Source of the DNA: Channallabes apus
Taxonomy: Eukaryota > Chordata > Actinopteri > Siluriformes > Clariidae
Length of the DNA stretch: 64,000 bases
Direction of reading: 5' to 3'
NCBI GenBank assembly: GCA_030522415.1
Contig: CM060112.1
Location: 8,971,001-9,035,000 of the forward strand
This document shows, one piece after another, positions 13,095-57,475 of this stretch. Under the pieces are notes generated by a model, which worked only from the letters and a program-made list of their open reading frames with translations, searched no databases and had not been told where the DNA came from. The stretch's first letter is position 1. Every line of letters begins with the position of its first letter. Made by a program: the position numbers and the translations under genes.

Positions 13095-13095
13095 T

Positions 13096-17656: not shown

Positions 17657-18010
17657 GGCTCTAATACCTGAAACATACAATAACATACAGTGACAAGAGC
17701 TCAGTGTTGTGACACAGGCTCGGACATACAGGCTCTAATACCTGAAACATATAGTGACCAGAGCTCTGTTGTAACACAGGCTCTGGGATACAGGCTCTAA
17801 TACCTGAAACATATAGTGATCAGAGCTCTGTTGTGACACAGGCTCTGGGATACAGGCTCTAATACCTGAAACATATAGTGACCAGAGCTCTCTGTTGTGA
17901 CACAGGCTCTGGTATCCAGACTCTAATACCTGGAACATATAGTGACCAGAGCTCTGTGTTGTGACACAGGCTCTGGGATACAGGCTCTAATACCTGGAAC
18001 ATATAGTGAC
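17657..18010 (-). repeat. 62-bp minisatellite inside element 1 LTR
   Basis: About five and a half tandem units contain CTCTAATACCTGAAACATA and the CAGAGCTCTGTTGTGACACAG-type half. The matching array in the other LTR is at about 20408-20750 and lacks part of the units. Open frames on the minus strand with a repeated FQVLEP motif arise from this array and are not treated as genes. Confidence 0.85.
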
Positions 18011-18339
18011 ATATAACAAACAGTAACAGACTCAAGACATACATAGACGGTATAACCCAAGCTCGGTTAGGTGGTAACTAAAGCAGGGCTCTACGAGCGG
18101 CACCCACATTCGCCATAGCGCATCACGCATGCACGCTCCTATGAGTGACCAACGCTCCATCCTAGGAGCTACCCATCCACACGCTCACCTCGATGAGCGG
18201 CACTCTCTCCCACACGTATAGCTAACACCTGGAAAACATACACACCCATACTCACCTACGCCCATCATACGCACACCCACACAAACCCACACGTAACCCA
18301 CGCTCCTATGAGCGGCCTTACACAAACACACACCTAACA

Positions 18340-18560
18340 AACACATGCATATCATACACACCTATACTCACCTAAGCACATCAAACATACCCACACACGT
18401 AAGCTATGCTCCTATGAGCGGCCCTAAACACACACACACACACACACACATGCATATCATACACACCTATACACACCTAAGCTCATCACACATACCCACA
18501 CACGTAAGCCACGCTCCTATGAGCGGCCCTACACACACACACACACACACACATGCAAAA
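18340..18560. repeat. CA-rich microsatellites in element 1 LTR
   Basis: Runs of (CA)n near 18426-18450 and 18530-18552 are interspersed with a ~120-bp repeated unit containing CACGCTCCTATGAGCGGCC. The equivalent tract in the other LTR (21165-21295) has different CA lengths, as expected of microsatellite drift. Confidence 0.8.
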
Positions 18561-19049
18561 CCTATACACCTATACTCACCTAAGCACATCACACATACAC
18601 ACTTAAACCCGCACTGAAACCACGCTCCTATGAGCGGCACTACAGGCAAACGCCAACCCGGCTAAGAGTCGCGCTATACACGCGCACACACACACACACC
18701 CACAGAACAAACACTCACATTCATACACACTCGTAGAGTATACCCAGGAGCCGAGCTTAGGTTACATACCGGGAGAGTCTCCAGAGACCGGGGAAGGGCA
18801 CTAGGAATTGGTGAGAGACACAAACGACTTGACAAGGGCAATAGAAACACAGGGGTAACCATCACAGCTTCCAGACACGTAACTAAGGGTGAAATCAAAG
18901 AAACACATAATTACATTCACTCAGAAAACACATTCTCAGAGCCAGTCTAACACAAAGTGAAATTAAACAAAACAAAAGCCCACTAGACAATAACAATGTT
19001 CGACCCAGTTTCCCAGAGCTAATAGCTTTTTATACAAGTTCTAATGAGC

Positions 19050-19092
19050 CACCTCAGCACAGGTGAAACTTTGTCATCACCTGACCGAGGTG
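19050..19092 (-). promoter_or_regulatory. Promoter palindrome, element 1 left LTR
   Basis: CACCTCAGCACAGGTGA faces TCACCTGACCGAGGTG across about 10 bp. On the minus strand TATAAAAAG follows within about 20 bp. The equivalent in the other LTR is 21791-21833. E-box CACCTG/CAGGTG cores are in both arms. Confidence 0.6.
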
Positions 19093-19175
19093 CCTTCTGG
19101 GAAACTGGGTCTTCTAACAAAAAACTACAGAAACCAAAATTCAGCCACAGTGCCCTCTAGGGGCAGTCCCTTACA

Positions 19176-19210
19176 GTACCCCCCACCCCTTACAACGCTC
19201 CAATGGAGCG
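19176..19210 (-). other. Polypurine tract and preceding hairpin, element 1
   Basis: On the minus strand the hairpin CGCTCC-ATT-GGAGCG (19210-19196) is followed by a purine-rich tract AAGGGGTGGGGGGTAC up to the LTR. A hairpin of the same design stands at the same place in element 2 (45614-45598). Confidence 0.65.
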
Positions 19211-20051
19211 CTATCGGCGATGTCTTCACCCACCTCTCCACATCGGCGATTTAGTTCGCTGAACTGGGTGGGAGGGTGGACGCGTTTGAACAGACTCCGA
19301 AGTCGTGCTGTGGGTGCAGCCGCTGGACCCTTTAGGTAGCCTGGGCTGTTGAGGCAGTACTGGATCGTTGGAGTAGGCCGGGCGGCGGAGGCAGCACTGA
19401 ACCACTCGCGCATCCCGCGCAGCGAATGCAGCACTGGGTCTTCCTCCAAGCCGGGCGGCCGATGCAGCACTGGGTTGTCCTAAGCGCCAGGCAATGGGTG
19501 CAGCCTTGATTCGCCTTTGCAGCTAGACTCCGGCGACGGCTCTCGCTCATTGTCGGGTGTTGGTGGACTCCGGAGGCTGATGCAGGATGGTGGAAGCAGT
19601 CTTGGATCCTTTGATGAACCTAGCTGACGAGGCAGTGCCAGATCGAGGTGGACCAGGCGGCGGAGGCAGCATTGCATCGCTCGGGAAACTCGAGCCTCGT
19701 AGGCAGCGCTGGGTTGTCCTCCTAGTCGGGTGGCCCGTGCTCGGGTTGTCCTCTCAGCCAGGTGATGGGGATGATCTGGATCCTTTCTATGGACCCGGCT
19801 GATGAGACAGCACCGGATCCTGTGGACCGAGCGGCGGAGGCAGCACTGCGTCGCTCCGGAAAGTTGAGCCTCATAGGCAGCGCGGGGTTGTCCTCCCAGC
19901 CGGGCGGTCGATGCAGTGCTGGGTTATTCTCCCAGCCGGTGCCTCCACTACTGCTCTCGCCTAGTCACAGAGTCTCACCTGAGGTTCTCAAAAAAAAAAG
20001 GGGGTGAAGGGACCTTTACTGTGGGATCCCCCTGCTATGCCCTTGTATGTA

Positions 20052-20062
20052 GGTCGAGCATT
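20052..20062 (-). other. Self-complementary primer-binding site, element 1
   Basis: On the minus strand the sequence after the 5' LTR is one G (20063) then AATGCTCGACC. It does not begin TGG, as a tRNA-primed site would. It matches the complement of the predicted first 11 nt of the transcript exactly, and the identity stops after 11 nt on both sides. Confidence 0.65.
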
Positions 20063-20063
20063 C

Positions 20064-21916
20064 TGTCACGTTGTGGTGTTACGGGCTGTTCTTATCGCCG
20101 TGGGCATATTAATGGCAGGCATAAACGCAGGGGGGTTGGATTAACAAAAAAATGTCTTTATTCAAAAACACTCAAAACCAAAATAAAACACTGGCTCTGA
20201 AAGCATACCATCACACACATACCAGGAATTCGGGATCAAAACCCCCACAGGGGGACACGGAACAACACCCATTCAAGGGAAAACGAAACAAAACACACTT
20301 AATGATAAGAGAAATTAAACACACTCAAGGGGCACATAACACACTCGGACTCTGGGAGCTGGTACACATAATCTCCGTCTATGGTGAGATACCATCTCTG
20401 TAACATGTAGGCTCTAATACCTGAAACATACAATAACATACAGTGACAAGAGCTCAGTGTTGTGACACAGGCTCGGACATACAGGCTCTAATACCTGAAA
20501 CATATAGTGACCAGAGCTCTGTTGTAACACAGGCTCTGGGATACAGGCTCTAATACCTGAAACATATAGTGACCAGGGCTCTGGGATACAGGCTCTAATA
20601 CCTGAAACATATAGTGACCAGAGCTCTCTGTTGTGACACAGGCTCTGGTATCCAGACTCTAATACCTGGAACATATAGTGACCAGAGCTCTGTGTTGTGA
20701 CACAGGCTCTGGGATACAGGCTCTAATACCTGGAACATATAGTGACATATAACAAACAGTAACAGACTCAAGAAATACTGTACATAGACGGTATAACCCA
20801 AGCTCGGTTAGGTGGTAACTAAAGCAGGGCTCTACGAGTGGCACCCACATTCGCCATAGCGCATCACGCATGCACGCTCCTATGAGTGACCAACGCTCCA
20901 TCCTAGGAGCTACCCATCCACACGCTCACCTCGATGAGCGGCACTCTCTCCCACACGTATAGCTAACACCTGGAAAACATACACACCCATACTCACCTAC
21001 GCCCATCATACGCACACCCACACAAACCCACACGTAACCCACGCTCCTATGAGCGGCCTTACACAAACACACACCTAACAAACACATGCATATCATACAC
21101 ACCTATACTCACCTAAGCACATCACACATACCCACACACGTAAGCTATGCTCCTATGAGCGGCCCTACACACACACACACATGCATATCATACACACCTA
21201 TACACACCTAAGCTCATCACACATACCCACACACGTAAGCCACGCTCCTATGAGCGGCCCTACACACAGACACACACACACACACACACACACATGCAAA
21301 ACCTATACACCTATACTCACCTAAGCACATCACACATACACACTTAAACCCGCACTGAAACCACGCTCCTATGAGCGGCACTACAGGCAAACGCCAACCC
21401 GGCTAAGAGTCGCGCTATACACGCGCACACACACACACACCCACAGAACAAACACTCACATTCATACACACTCGTAGAGTATACCCAGGAGCCGAGCTTA
21501 GGTTACATACCGGGAGAGTCTCCAGAGACTGGGGAAGGGCACTAGGAATTGGTGAGAGACACAAACGACTTGACAAGGGCACTAGAAACACAGGGGTAAC
21601 CATCACAGCTTCCAGACACGTAACTAAGGGTGAAATCAAAGAAACACATAATTACATTCACTCAGAAAACACATTCTCAGAGCCAGTCTAACACAAAGTG
21701 AAATTAAACAAAACAAAAGCCCACTAGACAATAACAATGCTCGACCGAGTTTCCCAGAGCTAATAGCTTTTTATACAAGTTCTAATGAGCCACCTCAGCA
21801 CAGGTGAAACTTTGTCATCACCTGACCGAGGTGCCTTCTGGGAAACTGGGTCTTCTAACAAAAAACTACAGAAACCAAAATTCAGCCACAGTGCCCTCTA
21901 GGGGCAGTCCCTTACA
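20064..21916 (-). repeat. Element 1 upstream LTR (promoter copy)
   Basis: This 1853-bp LTR is nearly identical to 17303-19175 and in minus orientation is the promoter-bearing copy. It carries the palindrome at 21791-21833, TATAAAAAG at 21775-21767 and the predicted RNA 5' end at 21746. The main differences from its partner are indels in the minisatellite and microsatellite tracts. Confidence 0.9.
21736..21746 (-). promoter_or_regulatory. Predicted RNA 5' end (R start), element 1
   Basis: On the minus strand the 11-mer GGTCGAGCATT begins 29 nt after the start of TATAAAAAG (21775). It is the exact complement of the 11-mer next to the 5' LTR at 20052-20062. The start site is predicted from TATA spacing and this complementarity, not measured. 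Confidence 0.6.
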
Positions 21917-25020: not shown

Positions 25021-28000
25021 GATTCATGAGCTGATCATCTTTCTCTGGAGGACTTTTTCAATAAAATTTATATCCCTTCTGTGGATCCGGTGACGATTGC
25101 TGAATTGGAAGAAATAGCTTCAGAAGAGATAGCTTCAGCAATTAGATCTATGCAGAGTGGCAAGTCACCGGGACCAGATGGTTTCCCAACAGATTTCTTT
25201 AAAAAATTTTCAGAGCAACTTTCCCCTTTATTGTTGTCAGTTTTTGAAGAGTCACTCTCAGTAAAATCTCTACCACCAACCATGCGTCAGGCAGTTATCT
25301 CATTAATCCTTAAAAAAGACAAGAACCCTCTTGAGTGTAGCTCATTTCGTCCAATTTCCCTTCTTAATACTGATGCCAAAGTGCTTGCTAAAGTCCTTGC
25401 GCGACGTTTAGAAGGGGTGTTGCCCTCCATCATATCACCTTTATTAAGAATCGTTATTCTTTTTTTAACATCAGACGACTTTTGAATATTCTTTACGGCC
25501 CCTCTCCACCTGGCATACCGGAGGTAGTTCTCTCATTGGATGCGGATAAGGCATTTGACCGTGTGGAATGGGGTTATCTTTTTCATACTCTGGAGAGATG
25601 TGGATTTGGTCGCAAGCTTACAGTATATCATGGATAAAACTTTGATATATGTCTCCATTAGCCGCTGTGCATACTAATAACAGCATATCTGCTAATTTTG
25701 AACTTCAACGTGGCACGAGGCAGGGATGCCCTCTATCTCCACTTCTATTTGCAGTCCCAATGGAACCACTTGCTTTGACTTTGAGACAAAAAGCCGATAT
25801 CCAGGGTATTCAACTGGCAGGATTGGAACATAAGGTTTCGCTTTATGCAGACGACATGTTATTATACTTGTCACAACCGCTGATAAATTTACCTAAGTTA
25901 GTGACTCTGCTTACAGAGTTTGGCAAAATATCTGAAGTGAACTAATGCCTGTTGGTGATGAGGTCAGTCTGTCATCTTTAAGCTCAATTCCTTTTAAAAT
26001 TAGCCCTAAAAAATTTAAATACCTTGGGATTTGGGTTACGCATGATCATAAAGACTTGTTCGGAGCAAATTATCCACCTCTCTTATCCAATCTAAAACAA
26101 GATCTTGAGCGTTGGGACCACCTCCATCTTTCATTGGTTGGAAGAATTAATACAATAAAAATGAGTGTATTGCCCAGGTTTCTGTATACTTTTCAGTGCC
26201 TTCCGTTATTTTTAACAAAATCTTTCTTCTCCAAATTAAATAATCATATTTCAACCTTTATTTGGAACAAAAAATCACCAAGAATTAAAAGTATACTGCA
26301 GAGACCTTGTGCAAAAGGAGGGATGGCACTTCCAAATTTCATGTACTATTACTGGGCAGCCAATATAAGAGCACTGATGTTCTGGTTAAACAATGACATT
26401 AATCCCCCTGTATGGACAATTCTGGAGGCGGCCTCAGTTAGGCACACCTCTCTAATGGCATTATTGTGTTCTAAAATACCACTTATTCAACCAATCTCTA
26501 GTTTGACCTCTAATCCAGTTGTTATGCATTCAGTTAAAATCTGGAACCAATTCAGAATATCGTTTTCTCTTAAAGTATTATCACTGGTTGCCCCAATTGC
26601 TAAAAATTACATGTTTGTTCCATTTATGATGGATGATGCTTTTAAAATTTGGGCTAGAAATGGATTAATCTCATTGTCTGAACTTTATATTGATGGAAAT
26701 TTTGCATCCTTCGAACAGTTGGTACAGAAATACGACATTCCTAAATCACATTTTTATAGGTATTTTCAGCTTCGGAATTTTGTGGCATTGAATTCTGATA
26801 ATTTCCCATCATGCCCTCCACTTTCTTTATTAGATTCAATATTTGAATGTAAATCAGTCCAAAAACAAACTATATGCAGGATCTATGAAATACTCAATGT
26901 GTATGATTCAACACCCTGTCACGTTCTGCTATGATGTAGGACTGTGGGCTTGGTGTTGAGGCATAAATGCAGAGGGGATGCAGTGAAACAGAAAAGAGTC
27001 TTTAATGAGATTAATAATAATAAACCAAACAAGCAAAACAAAACATGAACAAAGGAAGTTGGCTTAAACTTGGGAGCATAATGTAACAGAACTCAAACAC
27101 TTAGACACAAGACTAGGGATTACATACATTGATACACAATACAGACATGGGATACAAACTGGACAAGACTACTAAACAGCCTAGAGGACTAAACACAAGG
27201 GACTATGCATGCAAGGGATAAACAAACACAAGACAGGCTTGGCTAGGCCTACCACCTATTCTGCACATTAGCTGCTAAGCTAGCTCATAGCTAATCAGAC
27301 TAATGGCTAAACAGGCTAGTAGCCTGAGACCCAAGGGAATGAACAGACAAGGTACACAGCAGACTAGGTATGAAACAGACTAAGAACTCTAAAGGTTAGT
27401 GGCTAAAGAGGTTAGTACCTAAACAGACTAAGAGCTAAGCAGACAAGGAGACTAGACAGACTCAAAGACTAGACAGACTAAGATCTAAACATGTTAGTAT
27501 CACCCTCATTAGTATTTAAACAGACTACTAGCTAAACATGCAATGGGGGTTACTTACACAAAAGGGTAAACACAAAAGGCTAATTCTCCTAGAGGCTAAT
27601 CCTGCTAGGAGACACAGAGACAAAGAGACATAAACTAAATCAAAGCAAATACAAACTTAAAGAGCTCCAGAAACTAAATGCCAACCATACTGTTAAACTC
27701 AAACCAGAAGAAAACAAAATCCACATAACAGAAATTAATGCTCGACCCAGCTTCCCAGAACAAACAGGTATTTACAGTATGCTTATACTAATTGCATCCT
27801 AACTAAAAACACTGCCCTCTAGTGGGCAACCCTCACACACCCTTAGACTTACTCAGGAATAAATGGGAGACAGATTTAGATGAACCAATTTCAGAGGAAA
27901 TCTGGCACAAAATAATACAGGGAATTTTCTCATCATCCATTTGCCTTAGACATGCTGTAATACAATTTAAGATTGTGCATCGTCTACACTGGTCAAAAGT

Positions 28001-30833: not shown

Positions 30834-31079
30834 TGTAGCGTTTTTCGACGCTAGCAGGGATCTTGGAGTACGAGTGAGCTTACTTGCTCCCCAATGCAAA
30901 TGGCTGGGGAGTAGTTTATTAAACTCAGCACAAGCACACACACACGTCAAGCACACACACCTACACACGCCCAACTTGGCCGAAGCCACTAACCCAAACA
31001 CCCTTCTCTCTCATGGTGGACACATCGAGAACCCCCGCAAGGCATGACTGTCGTCAGCCGCCGGCCTGTCCACGCCACA
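30834..31079 (-). repeat. 5' LTR of the small Ty3-type element
   Basis: 246 bp with TG/CA ends. The first ~60 bp and last ~15 bp on the minus strand match the 74-bp remnant at 30183-30256, with about 170 bp missing from the latter. It contains a CA-rich stretch at about 30930-30975. Confidence 0.75.
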
Positions 31080-38810: not shown

Positions 38811-38812
38811 TA

Positions 38813-39289
38813 AATATAGAGGCCAATAACAGCAGGCCAAGGGTGATGATAATGATGACGATGAATAATTGTATCCTTTTCTCCAATTAAGTCAACGTAA
38901 AGGTCAGCTGCAATGGCCTATGACTTTATGCCAGTGTTCATTGCTGTAGAGAACACTGTATTGCAAACACTCACACACTCAATAATACAATAATATATTG
39001 CAGGCAATTTGAGAACAAAAATCAACCTTGTTCTCAGCATGGCCAGAACTGCATGGACAAAAACGTGATTCAAGCACTCAAAACTGAAATTGTGAGGCAA
39101 CATTGCTAGAGTAATTGCACCTAAAGAAAAAAAAAAGAATATAGATATATTTCTAGTGTTTATTTATTTTACTTATGATATTCATGCCTTTTAGCTAATG
39201 AAAACTCAAAATTCATTATCTCAGAAAATTAGAATATTACTTAGAACCAATAAAATAATAAATAAAATAAAAAAAAGATTTTTAACAAA
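38813..39289. other. Intergenic DNA, nothing recognised
   Basis: It contains a GATGATAATGATGACGATGA-like tract near 38850 and A-runs near 39128. No element boundaries are seen. Confidence 0.5.
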
Positions 39290-45223: not shown

Positions 45224-45228
45224 GAAAG

Positions 45229-45580
45229 TGTCATGATTTTTCCCCTTACTGTGTCTGCGTCGGGTGCGTGGTCGTGGCATGAATGCAGAGGAGGCGAGCT
45301 GACGGTTCGTTATTCTCTTTTATTAACATAAAAGGGAAACAAAACACCAAACACAAACTCAACTTAACTACAACAAAAGCTAGACGCCTGACTGCTGTTC
45401 AGTCAGGCTATTTAAACACAAACAAATCAACTAATAATTGGCTTACCTCGGTTCAGGTGAGCTTCTACGTCACCTGACCGAGGTGCACTCTGGGAACTGA
45501 AGTAAAACACAAAACACAAACAAACTACAAAACGAAACGAAAAACGGGCGCTAGGCGCCCTCTAGGGGTTAACCGTCACA
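45229..45580 (-). repeat. Element 2 downstream LTR
   Basis: 352 bp, starting (minus) TGTGACGGTTAACCCCTAG and ending ATCATGACA. It differs from 57119-57470 by A/G in the ACACAAAA/ACGCAAAA stretch near 45512. The stop codon of the giant ORF lies in its first five bases (TGA, 45578-45576). Confidence 0.95.
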
Positions 45581-48500
45581 GTATCACCCCCCAAAAAATG
45601 CTCCTCCGGAGCATCACCGGAGGTCCTGGACACCCACCCCAATGTTCTACCTTATCTTCCCTGACCAGGGGGCTGGGTGACAGGGCTGGAGACATGCTTG
45701 GCAGAGGCTGGGCTGGAGACGTGCTCGGCCATTGCAGAGCTGTCACTGCGCTCGACGACGGAGTTGGAGCATGCACTGCGCTCGACGACGGCATTGAAGC
45801 GTGCACTGCGCTCGACGACGGCGTTGGAGTATGCACTGAGCTCGCGGATGACGTTGGTGCTTGTGCTGAGCTCGACAGCGGCGTTGGTGCTTGTGCTGAG
45901 CTCGACGGAGGCGTTGGAGCGTACTCGGCGCTCGACGGCGGCGTTGGAGCGTACTCGGCGCTCGACGGCGGCGTTGGAGCGTACTCGGCGCTCGACGGCG
46001 GCGTTGGAGCGTACTCGGCGCTCGACGGCGGCGTTGGAGCGTACTCGGTGCTCGACGGCGGCGTTGGAGCGTACTCGGCGCTCGACGGCGGCGTTGGAGC
46101 GTACTCGGCGGTCGACGACGGCGTTGGAGCTTGTGCAGGGCTCGACGACGACGTTGGAGCTTGTGCAGAGCTCGACGATGACGTTAGTGCTTGTGCAGCG
46201 CTCGACGACGAGGTTGGAGCTTGCGCAGGGCTCGATGACGACGTTAGCGCTTGTGCAGAGCTCGACGACGAGGTTGGAGCTTGTGCAGAGCTCGACGACT
46301 GTGTTGGAACTGTCACTGCGCTCGACGACAACGTTGGAGCTTGTGCAGAGCTCAACGGTAGTGTTGGGGCGTGCACTGTGCTCGACGACAACGTTGGAGC
46401 TTGTGCAGAGCTCAACGGTAGTGTTGGAGCGTGCACTGCACTCGACGACAACGTTGGAGCTTGTGCAGAGCTCAACAGCAGTGTTGGAGCGTGCACGGCG
46501 CTCGATGACGACATTGGAGCTTGTGCAGAGCTCACCAGCGGTTTTGGAGCGTGCACTGCGCTCGTCGACAACGTTGGAGCTTGCACTACGCTCGACGACG
46601 TTGGAGCGTGCACTGCACTCGACGACAACGTTGGAGCTTGTGCAGAGCTCAACAGTAGTGTTGGAGCGTGCACTGCGCTCGACAACAACGTTGGAGCTTG
46701 TGCAGAGCTCAACAGCAGTGTTGGAGCGTGCACTGCGCTCGACGACAACGTTGGAGCTTGTGCAGAGCTCAACGGCAGTGTTGGAGCGTGCACTGCGCTC
46801 GTGGACAACGTTGGAGCTTGCACTACGCTCGACGACAACGTTGGAGCTTGTGCAGAGCTCAACAGCAGTGTTGGAGCGTGCACGGCGCTCGACGACAACG
46901 TTGGAGCTTGCACTACGCTCGACGACAACGTTGGAGCTTGTGCAGAGCTCAACAGCAGTGTTGGAGCGTGCACGGCGCTCGACGACAACGTTGGAGCTTG
47001 TGCAGAGCTCAACAGCAGTGTTGGAGCGTGCACGGTGCTCGATGACGACGTTGGAGCTTGTGCAGAGCTCACCAGCGGTTTTGGAGCGTGCACTGCGCTC
47101 GTCGACAACGTTGGAGCTTGCACTACGCTCGACGACGTTGGAGCGTGCACTGCACTCGACGACAACGTTGGAGCTTGTGCAGGGCTCAACAGCAGTGTTG
47201 GAGCATGCACTGCGCTCGACGACAACGTTGGAGCTTGTGCAGAGCTCAACAGCAGTGTTGGAGCGTGCACTGCGCTCGACGACAACGTTGGAGCTTGCAC
47301 TACGCTCGACGACGTTGGAGCGTGCACTGCGCTCGACGACGTTGGAGCGTGCATTGCGCTCGACGACAACGTTGGAGCTTGTGCAGAGCTCAACGGCAGT
47401 GTTGGAGCGTGCACTGCGCTCGTGGACAACGTTGGGGCTTGCACTACGCTCGACGACAACGTTGGAGCTTGTGCAGAGCTCAACAGCAGTGTTGGGGCGT
47501 GCACGGCGCTCGACGACAACGTTGGAGCTTGTGCAGAGCTCAAGAGCAGTGTTGGAGCGTGCACTGCGCTCGACGACAACGTTGGAGCTTGTGCAGAGCT
47601 CAACGGCAGTGTTGGAGCGTGCACGGCGCTCGACGACAACGTTGGAGCTTGTGCAGAGCTCAACGGCAGTGTTGGGGCGTGCACTGCGCTCGACGACAAC
47701 GTTGGAGCTTGTGCAGAGCTCAACAGCAGTGTTGGAGCATGCACTGCGCTCGACGACGACGTTGGAGCGTGCACTGCGCTCGTCGACGACGTTGGAGCGT
47801 GCAGTGCGCTCGACTGCGGCGTGGGAGCGTGCAGTGCGCTCGACTGCGGCGTGGGAGCGTGCAGTGCGCTCGACTGCGGCGTGGGAGCGTGCAGTGCGCT
47901 CGACTGCGGCGTGGGAGCGTGCAGTGCGCTCGACTGCGGCGTGGGAGCGTGCAGTGCGCTCGACTGCGGCGTGGGAGCGTGCAGTGCGCTCGACTGCGGC
48001 GTGGGAGCGTGCAGTGCGCTCGACTGCGGCGTGGGAGCGTGCAGTGCGCTCGACTGCGGCGTGGGAGCGTGCAGTGCGCTCGACTGCGGCGTGGGAGCGT
48101 GCACGGCGCTCGACTGCGGCGTGGGAGCGTGCACGGCGCTCGACTGCGGCGTTGGAGCGTGCACGGCGCTCGACTGCGGCGTTGGAGCGTGCACGGCGCT
48201 CGACTGCGGCGTTGGAGCGTGCACGGCGCTCGACTGCGGCGTTGGAGCGTGCACGGCGCTCGACTGCGGCGTTGGAGCGTGCACGGCGCTCGACTGCGGC
48301 GTTGGAGCGTGCACGGCGCTCGACTGCGGCGTTGGAGCGTGCACGGCGCTCGACTGCGGCGTTGGAGCGTGCACGGCGCTCGACTGCGGCGTTGGAGCGT
48401 GCACGGCGCTCGACTGCGGCGTTGGAGCGTGCACGGCGCTCGACTGCGGCGTTGGAGCGTGCACGGCGCTCGACTGCTGCGTTGGAGCGTGCACGGCGCT

Positions 48501-51500
48501 CGACTGCGGCGTTGGAGCGTGCACGGCGCTCGACTGCGGCGTTGGAGCGTGCACGGCGCTCGACTGCGGCGTTGATGCGTGCACGGCGCTCGACTGCGGC
48601 GTTGGAGCGTGCACGGCGCTCGTGCTGCATCGCTCGTGCACATCTTCCTCCGCGAGGGTTTTAGGCAGTGGCAGGAGTGGGAGTGCATCGTCCAGATCCA
48701 GGAGAGGAATCGCTTCCGGGATCACGGCCTGGTTCTCCCGAACCTGGACGAGCTGCAGTTGGAGCTGCAGCACCTGCTCGCGCAGGTCCAGAATGCACTC
48801 CCGGTTGAACTCTGCCCACTGCCAGTAGAAGCCCCCCGCGCTGCCGTGTTGCAGCGGTGCACAATCCGCTGTGCTTAGCTCCGGCGGCGGGGATGGGGGA
48901 AACGCGTCCGCGCTGGGTTCAGGCAGTGACCGAGGGAGGAGTGCATCGTCCAGATCCGGGAGGGCGATCGCTTCCGGGACTACAGGCTGGTTCTCCCGAA
49001 CCTGGACGTACTGCAGTTGGAGCTGCAGCACCTGCTCGCGCAGGTCTCGAATGCACTCCTCATTGCGTTCTGCCCACTGCGTTGGAGCGTGCACGGCGCT
49101 CGACGACGGCGTTGGAGCTTGTGCAGGGCTCGACGACGACGTTGGAGCTTGTGCAGAGCTCGACGATGACGTTAGTGCTTGTGCAGCGCTCGACGACGAG
49201 GTTGGAGCTTGCGCAGGGCTCGATGACGACGTTAGCGCTTGTGCAGAGCTCGACGACGAGGTTGGAGCTTGTGCAGAGCTCGACGACTGTGTTGGAACTG
49301 TCACTGCGCTCGACGACAACGTTGGAGCTTGTGCAGAGCTCAACGGTAGTGTTGGGGCGTGCACTGTGCTCGACGACAACGTTGGAGCTTGTGCAGAGCT
49401 CAACGGTAGTGTTGGAGCGTGCACTGCGCTCGACGACAACGTTGGAGCTTGTGCAGAGCTCAACAGCAGTGTTGGAGCGTGCACGGCGCTCGATGACGAC
49501 ATTGGAGCTTGTGCAGAGCTCACCAGCGGTTTTGGAGCGTGCACTGCGCTCGTCGACAACGTTGGAGCTTGCACTACGCTCGACGACGTTGGAGCGTGCA
49601 CTGCACTCGACGACAACGTTGGAGCTTGTGCAGAGCTCAACAGTAGTGTTGGAGCGTGCACTGCGCTCGACGACAACGTTGGAGCTTGTGCAGAGATCAA
49701 CAGCAGTGTTGGAGCGTGCACTGCGCTCGACGACAACGTTGGAGCTTGTGCAGAGCTCAACAGCAGTGTTGGAGCGTGCACTGCGCTCGACGACGTTGGA
49801 GCGTGCACTGCGCTCGACGACAACGTTGGAGCGTGCACTGCGCTCGACGACAACGTTGGAGCTTGTGCAGAGCTCAACAGCAGTGTTGAAGCGTGCACTG
49901 CGCTTGACGACAACGTTGGAGCTTGCACTACGCTCGACGACGTTGGAGCGTGCACTGCGCTCGACGACGTTGGAGCGTGCATTGCGCTCGACGACGTTGG
50001 AGCGTGCACTGCGCTCGACGACAACGTTGGAGCTTGTGCAGAGCTCAACGGCAGTGTTGGAGCGTGCACTGGGCTCGTGGACAACGTTGGAGCTTGCACT
50101 ACGCTCGACGACAACGTTGGAGCTTGTGCAGAGCTCAACAGCAGTGTTGGAGCGTGCACGGCGCTCGACGACAACGTTGGAGCTTGCACTACGCTCGACG
50201 ACAACGTTGGAGCTTGTGCAGAGCTCAACAGCAGTGTTGGAGCGTGCACGGCGCTCGACGACAACGTTGGAGCTTGTGCAGAGCTCAACAGCAGTGTTGG
50301 AGCGTGCACGGTGCTCGATGACGACGTTGGAGCTTGTGCAGAGCTCACCAGCGGTTTTGGAGCGTGCACTGCGCTCGTCGACAACGTTGGAGCTTGCACT
50401 ACGCTCGACGACAACGTTGGAGCTTGTGCAGGGCTCAACAGCAGTGTTGGAGCGTGCACTGCGCTCGACGACAACGTTGGAGCTTGTGCAGAGCTCAACA
50501 GCAGTGTTGGAGCGTGCACTGCGCTCGACGACAACGTTGGAGCTTGCACTGCACTCGACGACAACGTTGGAGCTTGTGCAGGGCTCAACAGCAGTGTTGG
50601 AGCGTGCACTGCGCTCGACGACAACGTTGGAGCTTGTGCAGAGCTCAACAGCAGTGTTGGAGCGTGCACTGCGCTCGACGACAACGTTGGAGCTTGCACT
50701 ACGCTCGACGACGTTGGAGCGTGCACTGCGCTCGACGACGTTGGAGCGTGCATTGCGCTCGACGACAACGTTGGAGCTTGTGCAGAGCTCAACGGCAGTG
50801 TTGGAGCGTGCACTGCGCTCGTGGACAACGTTGGAGCTTGCACTACGCTCGACGACAACGTTGGAGCTTGTGCAGAGCTCAACAGCAGTGTTGGGGCGTG
50901 CACGGCGCTCGACGACAACGTTGGAGCTTGTGCAGAGCTCAACAGCAGTGTTGGAGCATGCACTGCGCTCGACGACGACGTTGGAGCGTGCACTGCGCTC
51001 GTCGACGACGTTGGAGCGTGCAGTGCGCTCGACTGCGGCGTGGGAGCGTGCAGTGCGCTCGACTGCGGCGTGGGAGCGTGCAGTGCGCTCGACTGCGGCG
51101 TGGGAGCGTGCAGTGCGCTCGACTGCGGCGTGGGAGCGTGCAGTGCGCTCGACTGCGGCGTGGGAGCGTGCAGTGCGCTCGACTGCGGCGTGGGAGCGTG
51201 CAGTGCGCTCGACTGCGGCGTGGGAGCGTGCAGTGCGCTCGACTGCGGCGTGGGAGCGTGCAGTGCGCTCGACTGCGGCGTGGGAGCGTGCAGTGCGCTC
51301 GACTGCGGCGTGGGAGCGTGCACGGCGCTCGACTGCGGCGTGGGAGCGTGCACGGCGCTCGACTGCGGCGTTGGAGCGTGCACGGCGCTCGACTGCGGCG
51401 TTGGAGCGTGCACGGCGCTCGACTGCGGCGTTGGAGCGTGCACGGCGCTCGACTGCGGCGTTGGAGCGTGCACGGCGCTCGACTGCGGCGTTGGAGCGTG

Positions 51501-54500
51501 CACGGCGCTCGACTGCGGCGTTGGAGCGTGCACGGCGCTCGACTGCGGCGTTGGAGCGTGCACGGCGCTCGACTGCGGCGTTGGAGCGTGCACGGCGCTC
51601 GACTGCGGCGTTGGAGCGTGCACGGCGCTCGACTGCGGCGTTGGAGCGTGCACGGCGCTCGACTGCTGCGTTGGAGCGTGCACGGCGCTCGACTGCGGCG
51701 TTGGAGCGTGCACGGCGCTCGACTGCGGCGTTGGAGCGTGCACGGCGCTCGACTGCGGCGTTGATGCGTGCACGGCGCTCGACTGCGGCGTTGGAGCGTG
51801 CACGGCGCTCGTGCTGCATCGCTCGTGCACATCTTCCTCCGCGAGGGTTTTAGGCAGTGGCAGGAGTGGGAGTGCATCGTCCAGATCCAGGAGAGGAATC
51901 GCTTCCGGGATCACGGCCTGGTTCTCCCGAACCTGGACGAGCTGCAGTTGGAGCTGCAGCACCTGCTCGCGCAGGTCCAGAATGCACTCCCGGTTGAACT
52001 CTGCCCACTGCCAGTAGAAGCCCCCCGCGCTGCCGTGTTGCAGCGGTGCACAATCCGCTGTGCTTAGCTCCGGCGGCGGGGATGGGGGAAACGCGTCCGC
52101 GCTGGGTTCAGGCAGTGACCGAGGGAGGAGTGCATCGTCCAGATCCGGGAGGGCGATCGCTTCCGGGACTACAGGCTGGTTCTCCCGAACCTGGACGTAC
52201 TGCAGTTGGAGCTGCAGCACCTGCTCGCGCAGGTCTCGAATGCACTCCTCATTGCGTTCTGCCCACTGCGTTGGAGCGTGCACGGCGCTCGACGACGGCG
52301 TTGGAGCTTGTGCAGGGCTCGACGACGACGTTGGAGCTTGTGCAGAGCTCGACGATGACGTTAGTGCTTGTGCAGCGCTCGACGACGAGGTTGGAGCTTG
52401 CGCAGGGCTCGATGACGACGTTAGCGCTTGTGCAGAGCTCGACGACGAGGTTGGAGCTTGTGCAGAGCTCGACGACTGTGTTGGAACTGTCACTGCGCTC
52501 GACGACAACGTTGGAGCTTGTGCAGAGCTCAACGGTAGTGTTGGGGCGTGCACTGTGCTCGACGACAACGTTGGAGCTTGTGCAGAGCTCAACGGTAGTG
52601 TTGGAGCGTGCACTGCGCTCGACGACAACGTTGGAGCTTGTGCAGAGCTCAACAGCAGTGTTGGAGCGTGCACGGCGCTCGATGACGACATTGGAGCTTG
52701 TGCAGAGCTCACCAGCGGTTTTGGAGCGTGCACTGCGCTCGTCGACAACGTTGGAGCTTGCACTACGCTCGACGACGTTGGAGCGTGCACTGCACTCGAC
52801 GACAACGTTGGAGCTTGTGCAGAGCTCAACAGTAGTGTTGGAGCGTGCACTGCGCTCGACGACAACGTTGGAGCTTGTGCAGAGATCAACAGCAGTGTTG
52901 GAGCGTGCACTGCGCTCGACGACAACGTTGGAGCTTGCACTACGCTCGACGACGTTGGAGCGTGCACTGCACTCGACGACAACGTTGGAGCTTGTGCAGA
53001 GCTCAACAGTAGTGTTGGAGCATGCACTGCGCTCGACGACAACGTTGGAGCTTGTGCAGAGATCAACAGCAGTGTTGGAGCGTGCACTGCGCTCGACGAC
53101 AACGTTGGAGCTTGTGCAGAGCTCAACAGCAGTGTTGGAGCGTGCACTGCGCTCGACGACGTTGGAGCGTGCACTGCGCTCGACGACAACGTTGGAGCGT
53201 GCACTGCGCTCGACGACAACGTTGGAGCTTGTGCAGAGCTCAACAGCAGTGTTGAAGCGTGCACTGCGCTTGACGACAACGTTGGAGCTTGCACTACGCT
53301 CGACGACGTTGGAGCGTGCACTGCGCTCGACGACGTTGGAGCGTGCATTGCGCTCGACGACGTTGGAGCGTGCACTGCGCTCGACGACAACGTTGGAGCT
53401 TGTGCAGAGCTCAACGGCAGTGTTGGAGCGTGCACTGCGCTCGTGGACAACGTTGGAGCTTGCACTACGCTCGACGACAACGTTGGAGCTTGTGCAGAGC
53501 TCAACAGCAGTGTTGGAGCGTGCACGGCGCTCGACGACAACGTTGGAGCTTGCACTACGCTCGACGACAACGTTGGAGCTTGTGCAGAGCTCAACAGCAG
53601 TGTTGGAGCGTGCACGGCGCTCGACGACAACGTTGGAGCTTGTGCAGAGCTCAACAGCAGTGTTGGAGCGTGCACGGTGCTCGATGACGACGTTGGAGCT
53701 TGTGCAGAGCTCACCAGCGGTTTTGGAGCGTGCACTGCGCTCGTCGACAACGTTGGAGCTTGCACTACGCTCGACGACAACGTTGGAGCTTGTGCAGGGC
53801 TCAACAGCAGTGTTGGAGCGTGCACTGCGCTCGACGACAACGTTGGAGCTTGTGCAGAGCTCAACAGCAGTGTTGGAGCGTGCACTGCGCTCGACGACAA
53901 CGTTGGAGCTTGCACTGCACTCGACGACAACGTTGGAGCTTGTGCAGGGCTCAACAGCAGTGTTGGAGCGTGCACTGCGCTCGACGACAACGTTGGAGCT
54001 TGTGCAGAGCTCAACAGCAGTGTTGGAGCGTGCACTGCGTTCGACGACAACGTTGGAGCTTGCACTACGCTCGACGACGTTGGAGCGTGCACTGCGCTCG
54101 ACGACGTTGGAGCGTGCATTGCGCTCGACGACAACGTTGGAGCTTGTGCAGAGCTCAACGGCAGTGTTGGAGAGTGCACTGCGCTCGTGGACAACGTTGG
54201 AGCTTGCACTACGCTCGACGACAACGTTGGAGCTTGTGCAGAGCTCAACAGCAGTGTTGGGGCGTGCACGGCGCTCGACGACAACGTTGGAGCTTGTGCA
54301 GAGCTCAAGAGCAGTGTTGGAGCGTGCACTGCGCTCGACGACAACGTTGGAGCTTGTGCAGAGCTCAACGGCAGTGTTGGAGCGTGCACGGCGCTCGACG
54401 ACAACGTTGGAGCTTGTGCAGAGCTCAACAGCAGTGTTGGGGCGTGCACTGCGCTCGACGACAACGTTGGAGCTTGTGCAGAGCTCAACAGCAGTGTTGG

Positions 54501-57170
54501 AGCATGCACTGCGCTCGACGACGACGTTGGAGCGTGCACTGCGCTCGTCGACGACGTTGGAGCGTGCACTGCGCTCGACGGCGAGGGAGCGTGCAGTGCG
54601 CTCGACTGCGGCGTGGGAGCGTGCAGTGCGCTCGACTGCGTCGTGGGAGCGTGCAGTGCGCTCGACTGCGTCGTGGGAGCGTGCAGTGCGCTCGACTGCG
54701 GCGTGGGAGCGTGCAGTGCGCTCGACTGCGGCGTGGGAGCGTGCAGTGCGCTCGACTGCGGCGTGGGAGCGTGCAGTGCGCTCGACTGCGGCGTGGGAGC
54801 GTGCAGTGCGCTCGACTGCGGCGTGGGAGCGTGCAGTGCGCTCGACTGCGGCGTGGGAGCGTGCAGTGCGCTCGACTGCGGCGTGGGAGCGTGCAGTGCG
54901 CTCGACTGCGGCGTGGGAGCGTGCAGTGCGCTCGACTGCGCCGTGGGAGCGTGCAGTGCGCTCGACTGCGGCGTGGGAGCGTGCAGTGCGCTCGACTGCG
55001 CCGTGGGAGCGTGCAGTGCGCTCGACTGCGGCGTGGGAGCGTGCAGTGCGCTCGACTGCGGCGTGGGAGCGTGCAGTGCGCTCGACTGCGGCGTGGGAGC
55101 GTGCACGGCGCTCGACTGCGGCGTGGGAGCGTGCACGGCGCTCGACTGCGGCGTTGGAGCGTGCACGGCGCTCGACTGCGGCGTTGGAGCGTGCACGGCG
55201 CTCGACTGCGGCGTTGGAGCGTGCACGGCGCTCGACTGCGGCGTTGGAGCGTGCACGGCGCTCGACTGCGGCGTTGGAGCGTGCACGGCGCTCGACGACA
55301 ACGTTGGAGCTTGTGCAGAGCTCAACGGCAGTGTTGGAGCGTGCACTGCGCTCGTGGACAACGTTGGAGCTTGCACTACGCTCGACGACAACGTTGGAGC
55401 TTGTGCAGAGCTCAACAGCAGTGTTGGGGCGTGCACGGCGCTCGACGACAACGTTGGAGCTTGTGCAGAGCTCAAGAGCAGTGTTGGAGCGTGCACTGCG
55501 CTCGACGACAACGTTGGAGCTTGTGCAGAGCTCAACGGCAGTGTTGGAGCGTGCACGGCGCTCGACGACAACGTTGGAGCTTGTGCAGAGCTCAACGGCA
55601 GTGTTGGGGCGTGCACTGCGCTCGACGACAACGTTGGAGCTTGTGCAGAGCTCAACAGCAGTGTTGGAGCATGCACTGCGCTCGACGACGACGTTGGAGC
55701 GTGCACTGCGCTCGTCGACGACGTTGGAGCGTGCACTGCGCTCGACTGCGCCGTGGGAGCGTGCAGTGCGCTCGACTGCGGCGTGGGAGCGTGCAGTGCG
55801 CTCGACTGCGGCGTGGGAGCGTGCAGTGCGCTCGACTGCGGCGTGGGAGCGTGCACGGCGCTCGACTGCGGCGTGGGAGCGTGCACGGCGCTCGACTGCG
55901 GCGTTGGAGCGTGCACGGCGCTCGACTGCGGCGTTGGAGCGTGCACGGCGCTCGACTGCGGCGTTGGAGCGTGCACGGCGCTCGACTGCGGCGTTGGAGC
56001 GTGCACGGCGCTCGACTGCGGCGTTGGAGCGTGCACGGCGCTCGACTGCGGCGTTGGAGCGTGCACGGCGCTCGACTGCGGCGTTGGAGCGTGCACGGCG
56101 CTCGACTGCGGCGTTGGAGCGTGCACGGCGCTCGACTGCGGCGTTGGAGCGTGCACGGCGCTCGACTGCGGCGTTGGAGCGTGCACGGCGCTCGACTGCT
56201 GCGTTGGAGCGTGCACGGCGCTCGACTGCGGCGTTGGAGCGTGCACGGCGCTCGACTGCGGCGTTGGAGCGTGCACGGCGCTCGACTGCGGCGTTGGAGC
56301 GTGCACGGCGCTCGACTGCTGCGTTGGAGCGTGCACGGCGCTCGACTGCGGCGTTGGAGCGTGCACGGCGCTCGTGCTGCATCGCTCGTGCACATCTTCC
56401 TCCGCGAGGGTTTTAGGCAGTGGCAGGAGTGGGAGTGCATCGTCCAGATCCAGGAGAGGAATCGCTTCCGGGATCACGGCCTGGTTCTCCCGAACCTGGA
56501 CGAGCTGCAGTTGGAGCTGCAGCACCTGCTCGCGCAGGTCCAGAATGCACTCCCGGTTGAACTCTGCCCACTGCCAGTAGAAGCCCCCCGCGCTGCCGTG
56601 TTGCAGCGGTGCACAATCCGCTGTGCTTAGCTCCGGCGGCGGGGATGGGGGAAACGCGTCCACGCTGGGTTCAGGCAGTGACCGAGGGAGGAGTGCATCG
56701 TCCAGATCCGGGAGGGCGATCGCTTCCGGGACTACAGGCTGGTTCTCCCGAACCTGGACGTACTGCAGTTGGAGCTGCAGCACCTGCTCGCGCAGGTCTC
56801 GAATGCACTCCTCATTGCGTTCTGCCCACTGCCTGTAGAACTCCTTCGTCTCCCCCTTGACTGCTTTCTCCTCCTGCCTTTCCGCCTCCTCGGCGTACCC
56901 GCAGTTCTCCCCGCTCTGCTCGAACCTTGCTTCGCCGTGTTCCTCGCTGTCCTCCAGCAAACTCTCCTGCTCCACCAATAAGCTGTACTCCCAGCTGTGG
57001 TACATCTCGTCCTCGCTGTCCGCTAGCCATTCCGCCAGCTCGCTAGAGATGGTGATCACGCCCCCGAAACTCGTCCCGGGGGGAACCTCCGCCATGCCAC
57101 TTGGTCGGTCTAGCTTTCTGTCATGATTTTTCCCCTTACTGTGTCTGCGTCGGGTGCGTGGTCGTGGCAT
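45576..57170 (-). CDS. Giant repetitive ORF (3864 codons) of element 2
   Basis: I do not recognise the protein. It starts in the 5' LTR with a basic head (MPRPRTRRRHSKGKNHDRK). Residues 30-110 are acidic (WLADSEDEMYHSWEY, EESLLED-like). A cassette of two predicted coiled coils follows (ECIRDLREQVLQLQLQ and ECILDLREQVLQLQLQ). Beyond that the protein is Ser/Ala/Pro/Thr-rich, with 10-residue repeats SAVHAPTPQS or SALHAPTPQS and 20-residue units of the type LLLSSAQAPTLSSSAVHAPT. The coiled-coil cassette recurs near residues 113, 1634 and 2697. The tail has SAEYAPTPPS repeats and ends LRRSIFWGVIL, stopping 5 nt inside the 3' LTR. There is no signal peptide, membrane segment or enzyme motif. The repeat unit lacks stops in every frame, so openness alone is weak evidence for translation. 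A structural or Gag-like role is only speculation. Confidence 0.6.
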   Translation of the reverse strand: MPRPRTRRRHSKGKNHDRKLDRPSGMAEVPPGTSFGGVITISSELAEWLADSEDEMYHSWEYSLLVEQESLLEDSEEHGEARFEQSGENCGYAEEAERQEEKAVKGETKEFYRQWAERNEECIRDLREQVLQLQLQYVQVRENQPVVPEAIALPDLDDALLPRSLPEPSVDAFPPSPPPELSTADCAPLQHGSAGGFYWQWAEFNRECILDLREQVLQLQLQLVQVRENQAVIPEAIPLLDLDDALPLLPLPKTLAEEDVHERCSTSAVHAPTPQSSAVHAPTQQSSAVHAPTPQSSAVHAPTPQSSAVHAPTPQSSAVHAPTQQSSAVHAPTPQSSAVHAPTPQSSAVHAPTPQSSAVHAPTPQSSAVHAPTPQSSAVHAPTPQSSAVHAPTPQSSAVHAPTPQSSAVHAPTPQSSAVHAPTPQSSAVHAPTPQSSAVHAPTPQSSALHAPTPQSSALHAPTPQSSALHAPTAQSSAVHAPTSSTSAVHAPTSSSSAVHAPTLLLSSAQAPTLSSSAVHAPTLPLSSAQAPTLSSSAVHAPTLPLSSAQAPTLSSSAVHAPTLLLSSAQAPTLSSSAVHAPTLLLSSAQAPTLSSSVVQAPTLSTSAVHAPTLPLSSAQAPTLSSSAVHAPTPQSSAVHAPTPQSSAVHAPTPQSSAVHAPTPQSSAVHAPTPQSSAVHAPTPQSSAVHAPTPQSSALHAPTPQSSALHAPTPQSSALHAPTAQSSALHAPTPQSSALHAPTAQSSALHAPTPQSSALHAPTPQSSALHAPTPQSSALHAPTPQSSALHAPTPQSSALHAPTPQSSALHAPTPQSSALHAPTPQSSALHAPTTQSSALHAPTTQSSALHAPTPQSSALHAPSPSSAVHAPTSSTSAVHAPTSSSSAVHAPTLLLSSAQAPTLSSSAVHAPTLLLSSAQAPTLSSSAVHAPTLPLSSAQAPTLSSSAVHAPTLLLSSAQAPTLSSSAVHAPTLLLSSAQAPTLSSSVVQAPTLSTSAVHSPTLPLSSAQAPTLSSSAMHAPTSSSAVHAPTSSSVVQAPTLSSNAVHAPTLLLSSAQAPTLSSSAVHAPTLLLSPAQAPTLSSSAVQAPTLSSSAVHAPTLLLSSAQAPTLSSSAVHAPTLLLSPAQAPTLSSSVVQAPTLSTSAVHAPKPLVSSAQAPTSSSSTVHAPTLLLSSAQAPTLSSSAVHAPTLLLSSAQAPTLSSSVVQAPTLSSSAVHAPTLLLSSAQAPTLSSSVVQAPTLSTSAVHAPTLPLSSAQAPTLSSSAVHAPTSSSAMHAPTSSSAVHAPTSSSVVQAPTLSSSAVHASTLLLSSAQAPTLSSSAVHAPTLSSSAVHAPTSSSAVHAPTLLLSSAQAPTLSSSAVHAPTLLLISAQAPTLSSSAVHAPTLLLSSAQAPTLSSSAVHAPTSSSVVQAPTLSSSAVHAPTLLLISAQAPTLSSSAVHAPTLLLSSAQAPTLSSSAVHAPTSSSVVQAPTLSTSAVHAPKPLVSSAQAPMSSSSAVHAPTLLLSSAQAPTLSSSAVHAPTLPLSSAQAPTLSSSTVHAPTLPLSSAQAPTLSSSAVTVPTQSSSSAQAPTSSSSSAQALTSSSSPAQAPTSSSSAAQALTSSSSSAQAPTSSSSPAQAPTPSSSAVHAPTQWAERNEECIRDLREQVLQLQLQYVQVRENQPVVPEAIALPDLDDALLPRSLPEPSADAFPPSPPPELSTADCAPLQHGSAGGFYWQWAEFNRECILDLREQVLQLQLQLVQVRENQAVIPEAIPLLDLDDALPLLPLPKTLAEEDVHERCSTSAVHAPTPQSSAVHASTPQSSAVHAPTPQSSAVHAPTPQSSAVHAPTQQSSAVHAPTPQSSAVHAPTPQSSAVHAPTPQSSAVHAPTPQSSAVHAPTPQSSAVHAPTPQSSAVHAPTPQSSAVHAPTPQSSAVHAPTPQSSAVHAPTPQSSAVHAPTPQSSAVHAPTPQSSALHAPTPQSSALHAPTPQSSALHAPTPQSSALHAPTPQSSALHAPTPQSSALHAPTPQSSALHAPTPQSSALHAPTPQSSALHAPTPQSSALHAPTSSTSAVHAPTSSSSAVHAPTLLLSSAQAPTLSSSAVHAPTLLLSSAQAPTLSSSVVQAPTLSTSAVHAPTLPLSSAQAPTLSSSAMHAPTSSSAVHAPTSSSVVQAPTLSSSAVHAPTLLLSSAQAPTLSSSAVHAPTLLLSPAQAPTLSSSAVQAPTLSSSAVHAPTLLLSSAQAPTLSSSAVHAPTLLLSPAQAPTLSSSVVQAPTLSTSAVHAPKPLVSSAQAPTSSSSTVHAPTLLLSSAQAPTLSSSAVHAPTLLLSSAQAPTLSSSVVQAPTLSSSAVHAPTLLLSSAQAPTLSSSVVQAPTLSTSPVHAPTLPLSSAQAPTLSSSAVHAPTSSSAMHAPTSSSAVHAPTSSSVVQAPTLSSSAVHASTLLLSSAQAPTLSSSAVHAPTLSSSAVHAPTSSSAVHAPTLLLSSAQAPTLSSSAVHAPTLLLISAQAPTLSSSAVHAPTLLLSSAQAPTLSSSAVHAPTSSSVVQAPTLSTSAVHAPKPLVSSAQAPMSSSSAVHAPTLLLSSAQAPTLSSSAVHAPTLPLSSAQAPTLSSSTVHAPTLPLSSAQAPTLSSSAVTVPTQSSSSAQAPTSSSSSAQALTSSSSPAQAPTSSSSAAQALTSSSSSAQAPTSSSSPAQAPTPSSSAVHAPTQWAERNEECIRDLREQVLQLQLQYVQVRENQPVVPEAIALPDLDDALLPRSLPEPSADAFPPSPPPELSTADCAPLQHGSAGGFYWQWAEFNRECILDLREQVLQLQLQLVQVRENQAVIPEAIPLLDLDDALPLLPLPKTLAEEDVHERCSTSAVHAPTPQSSAVHASTPQSSAVHAPTPQSSAVHAPTPQSSAVHAPTQQSSAVHAPTPQSSAVHAPTPQSSAVHAPTPQSSAVHAPTPQSSAVHAPTPQSSAVHAPTPQSSAVHAPTPQSSAVHAPTPQSSAVHAPTPQSSAVHAPTPQSSAVHAPTPQSSAVHAPTPQSSAVHAPTPQSSALHAPTPQSSALHAPTPQSSALHAPTPQSSALHAPTPQSSALHAPTPQSSALHAPTPQSSALHAPTPQSSALHAPTPQSSALHAPTPQSSALHAPTSSTSAVHAPTSSSSAVHAPTLLLSSAQAPTLSSSAVHAPTLPLSSAQAPTLSSSAVHAPTLPLSSAQAPTLSSSAVHAPTLLLSSAQAPTLSSSAVHAPTLLLSSAQAPTLSSSVVQAPTLSTSAVHAPTLPLSSAQAPTLSSSAMHAPTSSSAVHAPTSSSVVQAPTLSSSAVHAPTLLLSSAQAPTLSSSAVHAPTLLLSPAQAPTLSSSAVHAPTSSSVVQAPTLSTSAVHAPKPLVSSAQAPTSSSSTVHAPTLLLSSAQAPTLSSSAVHAPTLLLSSAQAPTLSSSVVQAPTLSSSAVHAPTLLLSSAQAPTLSSSVVQAPTLSTSAVHAPTLPLSSAQAPTLSSSAVHAPTLLLSSAQAPTLLSSAVHAPTLLLSSAQAPTLSSSAVHAPTSSSVVQAPTLSTSAVHAPKPLVSSAQAPMSSSSAVHAPTLLLSSAQAPTLSSSAVHAPTLPLSSAQAPTLSSSTVHAPTLPLSSAQAPTLSSSAVTVPTQSSSSAQAPTSSSSSAQALTSSSSPAQAPTSSSSAAQALTSSSSSAQAPTSSSSPAQAPTPSSTAEYAPTPPSSAEYAPTPPSSTEYAPTPPSSAEYAPTPPSSAEYAPTPPSSAEYAPTPPSSAEYAPTPPSSSAQAPTPLSSSAQAPTSSASSVHTPTPSSSAVHASMPSSSAVHAPTPSSSAVTALQWPSTSPAQPLPSMSPALSPSPLVREDKVEHWGGCPGPPVMLRRSIFWGVIL
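45581..45614 (-). other. Polypurine tract and preceding hairpin, element 2
   Basis: On the minus strand the hairpin ATGCTCC-GGA-GGAGCAT (45614-45598) is followed by ATTTTTTGGGGGGTGATAC up to the LTR. The tract is translated as the last residues of the giant ORF (FWGVIL). Confidence 0.7.
45581..49080 (-). repeat. Higher-order repeat module 3 and ORF tail
   Basis: The third module carries the pure 30-bp array at about 47800-48620. It then passes into the unique tail with about seven 30-bp units of SAEYAPTPPS type (45900-46110) and the C-terminal end. Confidence 0.85.
49081..52269 (-). repeat. Higher-order repeat module 2 of the giant ORF
   Basis: 3189 bp (1063 codons). It is nearly identical over long stretches to the neighbouring modules; anchors such as CACAATCCGCTGTGCTTAGC occur at the same position in each. 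The pure 30-bp array lies at about 51010-51800. Confidence 0.88.
52270..56832 (-). repeat. Higher-order repeat module 1 of the giant ORF
   Basis: 4563 bp (1521 codons), from one coiled-coil cassette to the next on the minus strand. Relative to module 2 it carries an additional internal duplication: the block near 54127-54600 recurs near 55299-55740. Long pure 30-bp arrays occupy about 54600-55290 and 55760-56360. Confidence 0.85.
57107..57117 (-). other. Self-complementary primer-binding site, element 2
   Basis: After the 5' LTR comes one G (57118) then AAAGCTAGACC on the minus strand. It does not begin TGG. Ten of the 11 nt are complementary to the predicted transcript start of this same element, and the position and one-G spacing match element 1. 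Confidence 0.65.
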
Positions 57171-57219
57171 GAATGCAGAGGAGGCGAGCTGACGGTTCGT
57201 TATTCTCTTTTATTAACAT
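57136..57219 (-). CDS. Upstream ORF overlapping the giant ORF start
   Basis: A 27-codon frame starts at ATG 57219-57217, downstream of the predicted RNA start, and stops at TAA 57138-57136. It overlaps the giant ORF's start (57170) in another frame. It would be met first by scanning ribosomes, so it could lower translation of the long ORF. No conserved peptide is claimed. Confidence 0.35.
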   Translation of the reverse strand: MLIKENNEPSARLLCIHATTTHPTQTQ

Positions 57220-57265
57220 AAAAGGGAAACAAAACACCAAACACAAACTCAACTTAACTACAACA

Positions 57266-57275
57266 AAAGCTAGAC
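57266..57275 (-). promoter_or_regulatory. Predicted RNA 5' end (R start), element 2
   Basis: On the minus strand GTCTAGCTTT begins 31 nt after the start of TTTAAATAG. It is the exact complement of 10 nt of the primer-binding site at 57107-57117. The start site is predicted from spacing and complementarity. Confidence 0.6.
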
Positions 57276-57333
57276 GCCTGACTGCTGTTCAGTCAGGCTA
57301 TTTAAACACAAACAAATCAACTAATAATTGGCT

Positions 57334-57375
57334 TACCTCGGTTCAGGTGAGCTTCTACGTCACCTGACCGAGGTG
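57334..57375 (-). promoter_or_regulatory. Promoter palindrome, element 2 upstream LTR
   Basis: TACCTCGGTTCAGGTGA faces TCACCTGACCGAGGTG across 9 bp, about 28 bp upstream of the TATA-like box on the minus strand. An identical copy is at 45444-45485 in the other LTR. It shares arms with the palindromes of element 1 and of both DIRS terminal repeats. Confidence 0.65.
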
Positions 57376-57475
57376 CACTCTGGGAACTGAAGTAAAACGC
57401 AAAACACAAACAAACTACAAAACGAAACGAAAAACGGGCGCTAGGCGCCCTCTAGGGGTTAACCGTCACAGAAAG

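Follow-up and report, generated by a model that had tools for sequence, protein, structure and literature searches.

Candidate self-priming sequences in two long terminal repeat elements without a recognised pol from Channallabes apus

Two long terminal repeat (LTR) elements, called here element 1 and element 2, lie on the reverse (-) strand of a 64,000-nucleotide stretch of the Channallabes apus genome (assembly GCA_030522415.1, contig CM060112.1, positions 8,971,001 to 9,035,000; the window hereafter). They raise the question of how elements in which neither a pol gene nor a tRNA-type primer site is recognised would begin the synthesis of their DNA. In Tf1 of Schizosaccharomyces pombe, the first bases of the RNA are complementary over 11 nt to a site beside the 5' LTR (PMC7175516; papers are cited by such numbers for excerpts of their text). 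We consider it highly probable that elements 1 and 2 use self-priming of this Tf1/sushi type.

Complementarity between the LTR-adjacent site and the predicted RNA start

Element 2 and its parts are as follows (TSD, target-site duplication):
45229..57470 (-): element 2, LTR element without a recognised pol, 12.2 kb
57471-57475 and 45224-45228: TSD of element 2, CTTTC, 5 bp
57119..57470 (-): 5' LTR, 352 nt
45229..45580 (-): 3' LTR, 352 nt
57298..57306 (-): TATA-like box TTTAAATAG, of putative function
57266..57275 (-): predicted RNA start and self-primer GTCTAGCTTT, the start placed by TATA spacing
57107..57117 (-): predicted self-primer binding site AAAGCTAGACC, 11 nt, of which the first 10 pair
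45581..45592 (-): purine-rich stretch GGGGGGTGATAC adjoining the 3' LTR, by position a likely polypurine tract

The corresponding features of element 1, with two further LTRs of the window, are:
17303..21916 (-): element 1, 4.6 kb, interior of 888 nt, TSD GATAT
20064-21916 (-): 5' LTR, 1853 nt
17303-19175 (-): 3' LTR, 1873 nt
21775-21767 (-): TATA-like box TATAAAAAG
21736..21746 (-): predicted RNA start GGTCGAGCATT, 11 nt
20052..20062 (-): predicted binding site AATGCTCGACC, forming an 11-nt pair
26917..27837 (-): solo LTR, TSD GGGTG
30834..31079 (-): control LTR, followed by the tRNA-type site TTGGTGTCAGAGG

An LTR pair, a TSD, a primer site and a purine stretch, with no pol found, are the features of a non-autonomous LTR retrotransposon. 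The two LTRs of element 2 show 1 difference over 352 nt, and those of element 1 show 12 substitutions in 1838 aligned nt, with 6 gap runs. The 5' LTR ends in TGACA in both elements and is followed by a single spacer G (57118 in element 2, 20063 in element 1) and then by AAAGCTAGACC or AATGCTCGACC, respectively. When the first 16 internal nucleotides of each element were compared with its own 5' LTR, the longest complement was 10 nt at LTR position 196 in element 2 and 11 nt at position 171 in element 1. Measured from start to start, GTCTAGCTTT begins 31 nt downstream of TTTAAATAG, and GGTCGAGCATT begins 29 nt downstream of TATAAAAAG. The original prediction had placed the element 2 pair at 57117-57107 and 57275-57266, with a single G spacer, 10 complementary nucleotides and a 31-nt spacing, all of which is correct. 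The TATA spacing that it gave as equal in the two elements is similar in both, but not identical (31 versus 29 nt).

The 10-nt cores of the two elements differ at two positions, and they do so on both sides of the pair. Each core has no mismatch with its partner in the same element and two when cross-paired, and no cross-element complement of at least 7 nt was found between elements 1 and 2. The proposal that each site matches its own partner alone is thus borne out (0/10 mismatches within, 2/10 across). The element 2 site also finds a 10-nt complement in its own 3' LTR, where GTCTAGCTTT is repeated unchanged at 45385-45376.

A primer site of the tRNA type would carry TGG, and no TGG is present at the LTR-adjacent site of either element. 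A tRNA site displaced further inward was considered for element 2 and rejected, as the first TGG, 19 nt beyond the LTR end, lies too far in. The control LTR at 30834-31079 is followed by T and TGGTGTCAGAGG, which we take, by the same rule, to be a tRNA-type site; here the longest complement between the LTR and the adjoining site is just 5 nt.

The self-priming that we propose would proceed as in Tf1 of fission yeast. The predicted transcript would pair, through its initial 10 bases in element 2 and 11 in element 1, with the site adjoining the 5' LTR, RNase H would cut the RNA behind those 10-11 bases, and the freed 3' end would start minus-strand DNA. The reverse transcriptase would be supplied in trans, because no pol was found in element 1 or 2.

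Self-priming and its rivals

The simplest objection is that the complementarity arose by chance, as the product of searching two LTR elements for any complement. The frequency of such matches was estimated with 92,100 12-mers taken from both strands of the window outside elements 1 and 2 and the solo LTR, the target being the 30-nt stretch after the TATA box of each element. For the element 2 target, 23 of the 92,100 probes reach at least 10 nt, which among the matches listed come from two sites with overlapping probes, and GTCTAGCTTT has extra copies in the window at 11840 and 37558. Perfect 10-mers thus do occur elsewhere in the window, and the cases to be explained are only two. For the element 1 target, however, none of the outside probes reaches 10 nt (16 reach 9). 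The double changes likewise speak against chance: among the 405 possible two-base changes in the 10-nt site of element 1, a single one restores full pairing with the element 2 start. Since both pairs also share the offset from the LTR end and a nearly equal distance from the TATA box, we regard coincidence as extremely improbable.

Pairing of the two stretches might instead give the leader RNA a closed stem with a role in packaging or translation, DNA synthesis being started by a tRNA or another primer. The predicted fold of the element 2 leader does pair the primer with the site (mean probability 0.83), so that the leader would close with precisely that stem. The site, however, adjoins the LTR, which is the position required of a primer site, and lacks TGG; the end of its partner coincides with the predicted RNA start, as a mere stem would not require. 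This explanation therefore appears unlikely. A further possibility is that the pairs were inherited from an ancestor that was self-primed and are out of use in the present elements, which would have been moved or shaped otherwise. That neither element has a pol that we could find, and that the 3' LTR of element 1 is already mismatched to the site, would fit such a history. Against it stands the near identity of the LTR pairs (1/352 in element 2; 12 substitutions in 1838 nt and 6 gap runs in element 1), which indicates that both copies were recently reverse-transcribed with their present, differing pairs, and we hold it to be very unlikely.

Several observations weigh against self-priming itself or lend it no support. 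The case comprises just two elements, and the RNA start is a prediction from the TATA-like box. In the 3' LTR of element 1 (18995-19005) the primer reads GGTCGAACATT, with one mismatch to the element's own site, and owing to this change no complement of at least 7 nt exists between that site and the 3' LTR. When the rest of the element 2 leader was shuffled, primer and site paired with a mean probability of 0.84; the native value was equalled or exceeded in 161 of 200 shuffled leaders, and 168 of 200 were at least as stable, so that the fold gives no sign of further supporting structure in element 2 outside the 10 nt. The predicted leader fold of element 1 is without the duplex, the pair probability being 0.0 at all 11 positions. 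Lastly, sushi LTRs are described as bounded by the motifs TGTYANR and CNTNACA (PMC3601003). Compared by eye, the LTR starts TGTGACG and TGTAAGG miss the 5' motif, and the LTR ends CATGACA and CGTGACA fit the 3' motif. Self-priming, as put forward in the original prediction, nonetheless remains the best reading, given the exact pairing, its position, the two double substitutions and the absence of TGG; what has to be amended is that the pairs are probably not independent and that the mechanism has long been known for the Tf1/sushi group.

Element interiors and other features of the window

The interior of element 2 is one repeat open reading frame (ORF) throughout:
45576..57095 (-): single ORF, 3,839 codons, ATG at 57095, stop within the 3' LTR of element 2

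Most of it consists of repeats, with 305 counted units, all in frame, of 10 residues (285) or 9 residues (20), and Tandem Repeats Finder reports a 30-nt unit in 356.4 copies at 45744-56374. A Pfam scan of the ORF gave no match at E<=0.01, its first 280 residues gave only two sub-threshold matches at E<=5, and no homologue was found in protein searches restricted to candidates near the query length. Two further results were not used: an AlphaFold model of residues 1-232 made with no alignment (pLDDT 46.7), and the higher divergence of third codon positions between repeat copies (212 versus 158 and 138 in the longest alignment), since alignment gaps break the frame. In the interior of element 1, the longest open stretch over the three sense frames is 147 codons; pol was judged here from the open frames.

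Some further details of the two elements concern the surroundings of the predicted RNA starts. In element 2, a perfect 9-bp hairpin, GCCTGACTG-AACAG-CAGTCAGGC (57276-57298, (-)), abuts the predicted start; no such hairpin was seen in element 1. Of the 12 substitutions between the LTRs of element 1, two affect predicted primer bases -1 and 7 (LTR positions 170 and 177; 21747 and 21740 versus 19006 and 18999), with a post hoc P of 0.0025. Element 1 also carries AATAAA at LTR position 1755, and with the predicted RNA start at position 171, R would be about 1.6 kb (21746 to about 20162, (-)). Upstream of the TATA box, both LTR elements contain a palindrome block, CCTCGGTCAGGTGA...CACCTG (57373, 45483, 21831 and 19090, (-)), which had no match in viral contigs. 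Two copies of a different retroelement carry the same block at one end (8335 and 13102, (+)), where it precedes TATAAATA.

These two copies (8328-11186 and 13095-15915) encode a reverse transcriptase domain (E 9e-15) and show, on the minus strand, sub-threshold matches to phage integrase (E 0.03) and LAP2alpha (E 0.014); they are perhaps DIRS-like. Two Tc1/Sleeping-Beauty-like transposon copies, 98.3% identical, lie at 11471-13100 and 37185-38816 (+); a transposase of the Sleeping-Beauty-like type would by itself point to a vertebrate host, probably a fish. The window also holds a broken, truncated Ty3-like pol (34551-31191) with protease, reverse transcriptase, RNase H and integrase core, whose best solved relative is the Ty3 reverse transcriptase. 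No relatives of this pol were found in viral contigs (2 pattern-matching stretches) or genome contigs (17 stretches), and one partial phage match at 31.8% was of no use. Neither an Rfam match nor, with ARAGORN, a tRNA was found in the window.

Relatedness of the pairs and relation to known retrotransposons

The two pairs had been taken as independent, which is too strong: judged from their sequences, they are probably related. A 53-nt block upstream of the TATA box is 79% identical between the two elements, whose binding sites agree at 9 of 11 positions. The other stretch aligned by BLAST (31 nt, 81%) is rich in T and does not keep register with the primer. Common descent of the starts is therefore argued from the 53-nt upstream block, the likeness of the sites and their position. 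The solo LTR carries GGTCGAGCATT at 27737-27747, in register with the element 1 start, within a 68-nt alignment to element 1 (75%) that is in register over both TATA box and start.

Relatedness bears on how the two halves came to differ together. The Tf1 primer is reportedly retained on the cDNA (Atwood-Moore et al. 2006). If the primer were likewise kept on the cDNA and copied into the plus strand here, the binding site would take over a mutation of the RNA start in the course of one or two cycles. The site being rewritten from the RNA start, covariation would arise without selection for compensating mutations, and it need not reflect such selection. The base at 57107, just past the 10-nt core of element 2, is a C as in element 1, but it faces a C in the LTR instead of a G. 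Retention of this C despite the differing LTR base is as expected if copying stops at the RNA start; from two elements, we infer that it may mark the end of copying.

Self-priming has been described for Tj1 (PMC4600332) and, with a 'pretzel' leader of flanking duplexes, for the Tf1/sushi group (PMC10085805); among plant elements it is predicted for Tcn1 and TAR (PMC6317226), and self-priming in vertebrates is credited to Butler et al. 2001 in both PMC4600332 and PMC6317226. The elements described here resemble Tf1 in that the 5' bases of the RNA would match the LTR-adjacent site, over 10-11 nt compared with 11 nt in Tf1 (PMC7175516). They differ in that Tf1 codes for both Gag and Pol and has been demonstrated to self-prime by experiment, whereas elements 1 and 2 are known from sequence alone, with no pol found. 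With vertebrate Tf1/sushi elements they share a vertebrate host in which self-priming is inferred, and a truncated Ty3-like pol is present in the window; those elements, however, are described by their pol. A Tf1/sushi-clade pol with chromodomain of their own was found in neither element 1 (at most 147 sense codons, from open frames alone) nor element 2 (no Pfam match at the threshold given above). Both would thus work like a Tf1/sushi member but are not filed as one.

The TRIM kind offers another comparison, having LTRs and a short or non-pol interior. The biv-TRIM is pol-less and, like our elements, without a clear tRNA-type site, and no priming mechanism is proposed for it in the excerpt (PMC6934838). 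TRIMs are nevertheless shorter than 1000 bp (PMC6934838), compared with 4.6 kb for element 1 and 12.2 kb, with a huge repeat ORF, for element 2. The excerpts of PMC3248453 and PMC4340606 contain nothing on self-priming of elements. A pol-less element with a self-primer is not named in the titles and abstract openings of the open-licence papers that the searches listed, which is weak evidence of absence. The observation, then, is a true one and very likely reflects self-priming, as a new instance of a long-published mechanism, in elements without their own pol.

We tentatively go one step further, to a proposal that we give somewhat less than an even chance of being right. Elements 1 and 2 may belong to a pol-less, self-primed family in which primer and site drift together as a self-updating signal of free sequence, overwritten in each cycle. 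A sushi-type reverse transcriptase acting in trans would accept this signal by position and not by sequence, and one member of the family would carry and spread a 3,839-codon repeat ORF.

Taken together, a known mechanism gains two elements that lack a recognised pol and differ in their primer pairs, and it becomes testable whether the two halves of such a pair are kept matched by copying of the primer rather than by selection for compensating mutations.

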